From: Nitrosopumilus adriaticus
GTDB taxonomy: Archaea; Thermoproteota; Nitrososphaeria; Nitrososphaerales; Nitrosopumilaceae
Direction of reading: 5' to 3'
Length of the DNA stretch: 64,000 nucleotides
Assembly: GCF_000956175.1 (NCBI RefSeq)
Contig: NZ_CP011070.1
Span: 1,730,147 to 1,794,146 of the forward strand
In this document: in pieces, positions 20,276 through 20,862 of the stretch
Layout: each line of letters begins with the position of its first letter
Numbering within the stretch: position 1 is the first letter of the stretch
The notes under the pieces: generated by a model
Told to the model about the DNA's origin: nothing
Databases searched by the model: none
The model's input: only the letters and a program-made list of their open reading frames with translations
Translations under genes and position numbers: made by a program

Positions 20276-20310
20276 ATTTTTAAACACAAATTAATCATTA
20301 AAAACCTAAG

Positions 20311-20371
20311 GCAGGCTCAGAACTCAAGATCCTCATCATCATTTCAAAGGGATAGGTTCATCACTGCCTGC
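20311..20371 (-). ncRNA. Box C/D guide sRNA
   Basis: Read on the minus strand, all C/D elements are present in order. Box C is GTGATGA (20358-20364) and is followed by a guide of about 10 nt. The D' box is degenerate (TTGA, 20344-20347). Box C' is ATGATGA (20333-20339), followed by a 12-nt guide GGATCTTGAGTT and box D CTGA (20317-20320). The ends form a perfect 6-bp terminal stem, GCAGGC with GCCTGC (20366-20371 with 20311-20316). The size of about 61 nt is typical of archaeal 2'-O-methylation guides assembled with L7Ae, Nop5 and fibrillarin. The target is not identified. Confidence 0.75.
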
Positions 20372-20445
20372 ATGCATAATTCAGGCAGATTCCTATTGAG
20401 TCTTTCAAGAAGCTTGATAAATGGCTAATAGTTCAATCTTTCAAA

Positions 20446-20862
20446 ATGGTTGCAATTGATACTCCCGCCTCATTGGAAAGCTTTAGAAGATTTATAATTT
20501 CGAGTACTTGTAAATCCTACGCCCCAAGGAGTTATTTGGAAGATTCGGAGGTGTTTGCAGAAAGAGAAGACAGTCTTGGTGCAATTTACGTAGAAGCAGC
20601 TGATAAAGTAACTTTGAAAAAAATAAGAGATATTACATTTGTTAATGCAAGAGATATTCTAGGAATTATATATAATTCAAAAAGTGGAAACACATCTTTG
20701 AAATGGCGTCAATTAAGACGAAATAATGGTAAAGTTTCTGGCGAAGCTTCTGCAAACTCTCTTACAAATCTAGCAGAATCAGGAGTTCTTACTTTAGATT
20801 GGGTTGAAAATTATCTAAAGAAAAAAACAGAAGAAACAAAGACTAACGAAGTCACAGGCTAA
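20446..20862 (+). CDS. Conserved hypothetical protein
   Basis: 138 residues, family not recognised. The N-terminal part (MVAIDTPASLESFRRFI...YAPRSYLEDSEVF) is mixed alpha/beta and the C-terminal third is charged and helical (WVENYLKKKTEETKTNE). No membrane segment or metal motif is visible. It lies 32 bp upstream of the Pelota gene on the same strand and may be co-transcribed with it. A function is not proposed. Confidence 0.7.
   Translation: MVAIDTPASLESFRRFIISSTCKSYAPRSYLEDSEVFAEREDSLGAIYVEAADKVTLKKIRDITFVNARDILGIIYNSKSGNTSLKWRQLRRNNGKVSGEASANSLTNLAESGVLTLDWVENYLKKKTEETKTNEVTG

Follow-up and report, generated by a model that had tools for sequence, protein, structure and literature searches.

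A Box C/D sRNA Gene between Two Divergent Protein-Coding Genes

The window, a 64,000-nucleotide stretch of the genome of Nitrosopumilus adriaticus, an archaeon of the ammonia-oxidizing type, contains a short intergenic element on the minus strand at positions 20311–20371. Judged by its sequence, this is a real, canonical archaeal box C/D sRNA gene of 61 nt that has gone unannotated. It sits between a gene for a UPF0047 (YjbQ) protein (PF01894), which lies downstream, and a divergently transcribed conserved gene.

Read from 20371 to 20311, the minus strand runs GCAGGC-A-GTGATGA-ACCTATCCCT-TTGA-AATG-ATGATGA-GGATCTTGAGTT-CTGA-GCCTGC. Box C (GTGATGA, 20358–20364) fits the RTGATGA consensus, and its TGA core is invariant in relatives. 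Box C′ (ATGATGA, 20333–20339) was read directly and aligns in relatives, and box D (20317–20320) is CTGA, as in 85 of 105 tabulated segments. Box D′ (TTGA, 20344–20347) departs from CTGA by one mismatch, and many relatives have CTGA at this position. The 5′ arm GCAGGC (20366–20371) and the 3′ arm GCCTGC (20311–20316) close the RNA with a terminal stem of 6 bp. Between the boxes lie two putative guides, the D′ guide ACCTATCCCT (20348–20357) and the D guide GGATCTTGAGTT (20321–20332). The first-pass annotation had described perfect or near-perfect boxes C, C′, and D, a degenerate D′ box, a 6-bp terminal stem, and this D guide, all of which we find as described. The order C, D′, C′, D within 61 nt is that of archaeal C/D RNAs (about 50–70 nt), and the covarying 6-bp stem brings boxes C and D together, as in a k-turn. 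Across the 1.8 Mb genome, the pattern TGATGA-N16..30-TGATGA-N9..14-CTGA matches five times, at four places; its reversed control matches nowhere. The gene itself is single copy.

About 21–35 nt upstream of the stem lies a BRE/TATA-type element, GAAAGACTCAATAGG (20392–20406, minus strand). It is conserved in the genus, and both its position and its sequence resemble those of tRNA-gene promoters of this genome, for example GGAAAGATTAAATC before tRNA-Asn; it is probably the sRNA's own promoter. Six nucleotides after the stem, a T-run (20300–20304, minus strand) is a possible terminator. This run precedes the UPF0047 gene and lies in a TTTTTAAT box, possibly the promoter of that gene.

The divergent gene (20446–20862, plus strand) encodes a conserved 138-amino-acid protein without a Pfam family and is immediately upstream of a pelota/eRF1-like gene. 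In several congeners, insertions have entered at one point just upstream of the sRNA promoter, after TTTAT and ending GTTCACC (L055:1167–2370, L016:1621–2871, and L044:1431–1679). Two of these contain TnpB-type genes, so that IS605-type TnpB elements lie directly upstream of the promoter (Pfam OrfB_IS605 is confirmed for L055). In G013, the insertion has a small RelE-like ORF with no Pfam match.

The Element Is Conserved across the Class and Its Terminal Stem Covaries

A DNA search with the sRNA region matched 71 of 120 relatives, a count that includes the window's own genome; 63 of the matches are in the same genus, and several of the congeners lacking one are incomplete genomes. The element is thus kept in most congeners searched, and the same boxes and D guide were present at the 70 loci that we read. 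The first-pass annotation had made its prediction hinge in part on conservation of the boxes in close relatives, and on this evidence the prediction survives. It had also proposed looking for covariation, and the terminal stem does covary: across 33 divergent sequences, 93.9% of cells are paired, and five of the six pairs show changes on both sides. None of 500 shuffles reached as high a covariation, and shifting the partner columns abolishes the signal.

These data bear on whether the element is instead protein coding, by way of an overlapping 111-amino-acid ORF on the plus strand, or a promoter or other regulatory DNA with only a chance resemblance to a C/D RNA. The location between the UPF0047 gene and a divergent gene would suit regulatory DNA. 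Chance resemblance is nevertheless excluded by the retention of boxes and guide in relatives while the terminal stem covaries, and the element is present in distant families of the class. Relatives also differ by 1-nt indels between D′ and C′, which excludes coding constraint from the ORF, itself without a Pfam family. We therefore regard the probability of a coding or chance origin as next to nil.

At E ≤ 0.01, a covariance model built from the relatives had hits in 258 of 300 genomes of the class, but a paralogous sRNA is counted among them, which makes the figure too high for orthologs alone. The window sRNA scores 93 bits against this model, its own sequence being among the model's sources. 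When loci were read singly, almost every family inspected, also in other orders of the class, proved to have homologs with the guide ATCTTGAG. Anatomy, covariation, and class-wide conservation together support assignment to the box C/D class, as the first-pass annotation had proposed. In Rfam, the sRNA falls below the gathering threshold of every family. Its best match is RF00095 (snoPyro_CD), with which it shares the C/D architecture and aligns end to end, but the score of 38 bits is under the curated gathering score of 45 and the guides differ; matches to the sR families are far below threshold.

The D guide has a strongly conserved core. Positions 3–11 (GATCTTGAG) occur at all 70 loci read and at nearly all others, and are near-invariant among homologs. 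In the 105 tabulated segments, which were selected for containing ATCTTGAG and in which that core is constant by selection, the G before it is constant as well, and guide positions 1, 2, and 12 vary. As a sequence pattern, a constant core with variable positions 1, 2, and 12 is the footprint expected of a C/D guide duplex.

A GC-rich subgroup (L062, L063, L064, and L068) and one further locus (L218, genome G074) have hairpin insertions between D′ and C′ and keep the D guide. An apparent intron in G074 was rejected, being such a hairpin insertion followed by an intact guide.

The D Guide Is Predicted to Pair with the Anticodon Loop of tRNA-Leu(CAA)

The D guide most likely directs 2′-O-methylation of C34, the wobble base of tRNA-Leu(CAA), which reads UUG. 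All 12 nucleotides of GGATCTTGAGTT can pair with nucleotides 30–41 of this genome's mature tRNA-Leu(CAA), through 11 Watson-Crick pairs and one G-U pair. The sequence AACTCAAGATCC, which the first-pass annotation had deduced for a target, is present there as GACTCAAGATCC. By the box C/D rule, the target is the nucleotide that pairs with the fifth position of the guide, counted upstream from box D. That position is the G at 20325, and since it faces C34, Cm34 is the predicted product. A 12-nt pairing directly upstream of box D also agrees with the 8–12 nt of a C/D guide. The duplex with the mature tRNA (−18.9 kcal/mol) is the best for this guide among all tRNAs, that with the precursor reaching −16.5 kcal/mol. 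When shuffled D guides were matched to all tRNAs, none of 1000 did as well as −18.9 (shuffle mean −12.2).

The D guide could in principle target rRNA rather than a tRNA, for example the 3′ region of 16S rRNA at AACTTGAGGTTC (about position 1400), where it makes a 12-nt match. Four of these pairs are G-U, however, as is typical of its weak rRNA matches, and the energy of −12.8 kcal/mol is at chance level, being equaled by 48 of 100 shuffled guides, against −18.9 for the tRNA. Moreover, among the scanned rRNAs and tRNAs, only tRNA-Leu(CAA) offers a full Watson-Crick complement to the core GATCTTGAG. An rRNA target is accordingly most improbable.

The tRNA-Leu(CAA) gene (G000:C1:1350239–1350339, minus strand) has a 16-nt intron at 37/38, which we placed by reading the anticodon stem; the ends given by ARAGORN differ. 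The intron begins with the same letters as the following exon (ATC), so that the junction reads CTCAAG/ATCT in the precursor and CTCAAG/ATCC once spliced, and the guide would be able to pair with both forms. The tRNA-Leu(CAA) segment ACTCAAGAT is kept in most of the 120 relatives, whether or not the gene has an intron. Where introns are present they often begin ATC(C/T), a feature shared by many congeners, and the target thus reads nearly alike before and after splicing.

The anatomy, its conservation, the covariation of the stem, and the full-length complementarity in register are seen in the sequence, as is a gene for fibrillarin elsewhere in the genome (PF01269, E = 1.8e−87). Considered together, they make it very likely that this single-copy guide RNA acts on C34 in the following manner. 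Its own promoter would drive transcription of the sRNA, and the box C/D proteins, fibrillarin among them, would assemble on it. Within this RNP, the D guide would pair with the anticodon loop and the 3′ strand of the anticodon stem of tRNA-Leu(CAA), and fibrillarin would 2′-O-methylate C34, giving Cm34 in the UUG-reading tRNA. Nitrososphaeria genomes thereby gain a previously unannotated RNA gene, and Cm34 in tRNA-Leu(CAA) is the direct prediction that follows.

In bacteria, the Cm34/Um34 modification of tRNA-Leu is made by TrmL. The predicted modification and tRNA are the same, but TrmL is a protein-only enzyme that works without a guide RNA. Guide RNAs like this one have been described before in other archaea. 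A passage of PMC7994747, citing D’Orval et al. (2001), describes a Pyrococcus C/D sRNA predicted for C34 of tRNA-Leu(CAA), one of four guides for wobble positions. In P. furiosus, C34 of tRNA-Leu(CAA) is among the predicted sites and absent from the detected ones (PMC7668247). The Pyrococcus RNA is of the same class and has the same predicted target tRNA and nucleotide, but the window sRNA comes from the class Nitrososphaeria, and the two are likened by predicted target. Another Pyrococcus RNA, sR49, and a Haloferax sRNA likewise guide Cm34 formation at a wobble position, but in tRNA-Met (PMC2584109) rather than tRNA-Leu(CAA). The open-access papers searched included none that connects Nitrosopumilus with box sRNAs and no dedicated box sRNA study for Thaumarchaeota. 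The retention of the guide core across an archaeal class suggests that the importance of wobble methylation of tRNA-Leu(CAA) extends far past the hyperthermophiles from which such guides were described.

The D′ Guide Is Conserved by Lineage

Within the genus, the D′ guide has the form TATCC(C/T)T; across the rest of the order and class, most families have (T/A)AGCCC. The first-pass annotation had called for a search of rRNA and tRNA with both guides, and the tRNA-Leu(CAA) complement of the D guide has no convincing counterpart for D′ in either kind of RNA, where its matches are several of 7–9 bp. Candidates at 23S AGGGATA (∼2537), 23S GGGGTAGG (∼82), and tRNA-Ala(GGC) GGATAGGT were set aside, none being clearly above shuffled guides, which do as well in 29 of 200 cases for tRNA and 17 of 100 for rRNA. 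In the cross-species rRNA scan, three of nine loci had a motif count of 0 and were probably wrongly oriented, which makes the result for other families unreliable. Also rejected was a pairing of D′ with AGGGA on the 5′ side of the tRNA-Leu(CAA) anticodon stem, since inspection by eye showed no covariation between families.

That the D′ core (TAGCCC, or TATCCC in the genus) is conserved in most of the class might indicate that the RNA is box C/D-like and acts mainly through this guide on some other RNA, the tRNA match being secondary. We consider this very unlikely: from one lineage to another the D′ guide changes and the core of the D guide does not, and no rRNA or tRNA site consistently fits D′. 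A D′ guide lacking a target would not be unusual for an RNA predicted to act on tRNA-Leu(CAA) through its D guide, since tRNA-guiding sRNAs of Pyrobaculum are alike, with one guide for tRNA and the other without a target, as described in a passage of Breuer et al. (PMC7994747), after Lui et al. (2018). The conserved D′ guide may give the sRNA a second role.

The D Guide Is Interrupted in Two Relatives

In two genomes from another, related family within the order, the homologous sRNA gene is interrupted within the D guide (L217:1501–1589 in G082 and L235:1501–1589 in G095, both plus strand), which reads GGAT[23 nt]CTTGAG. By eye, both inserts form a 4-bp helix between two 3-nt bulges, each of which would be cut after the second nucleotide, and both keep GAGG-AT/A-GGC ... 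GCC-CCTC-AG/C, while the intron loop has diverged. Both predicted folds include the GAGG/CCTC helix. The outer helix is weak. The insert lies exactly opposite the 37/38 splice position of the tRNA, and the tRNA-Leu(CAA) genes of both genomes appear intronless. A scan of the collection for interrupted guides returned one named carrier, a Nitrososphaeria MAG.

We consider it reasonably likely, from these sequences, that in this family a 23-nt bulge-helix-bulge intron divides the sRNA gene within the guide, opposite the 37/38 splice site of the tRNA, and that the tRNA splicing endonuclease would have to cut the transcript before a guide could exist. The spliced guide is predicted to read GGATCTTGAG. 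We found no report of such a guide-RNA intron in the literature searched; if true, an intron-interrupted guide RNA would link tRNA splicing to tRNA modification.

A Second sRNA Probably Guides Methylation of tRNA-Met

The same genome contains a second box C/D sRNA (G000:C1:1332411–1332478, minus strand; locus L220), whose guide GGATTATGAGTA can pair with ACTCATAATC in elongator tRNA-Met(CAU), which places C34 in register. It probably guides Cm34 in this tRNA and is an apparent counterpart of the sR49 and Haloferax tRNA-Met guides. A match of GGATTATGAGTA to tRNA-Val(UAC) is better in energy than that to tRNA-Met(CAU), and the assignment rests on register and on the sR49 precedent (PMC2584109), not on energy. 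Similar sRNAs are found in G011, G163, G185, G215, and G116.
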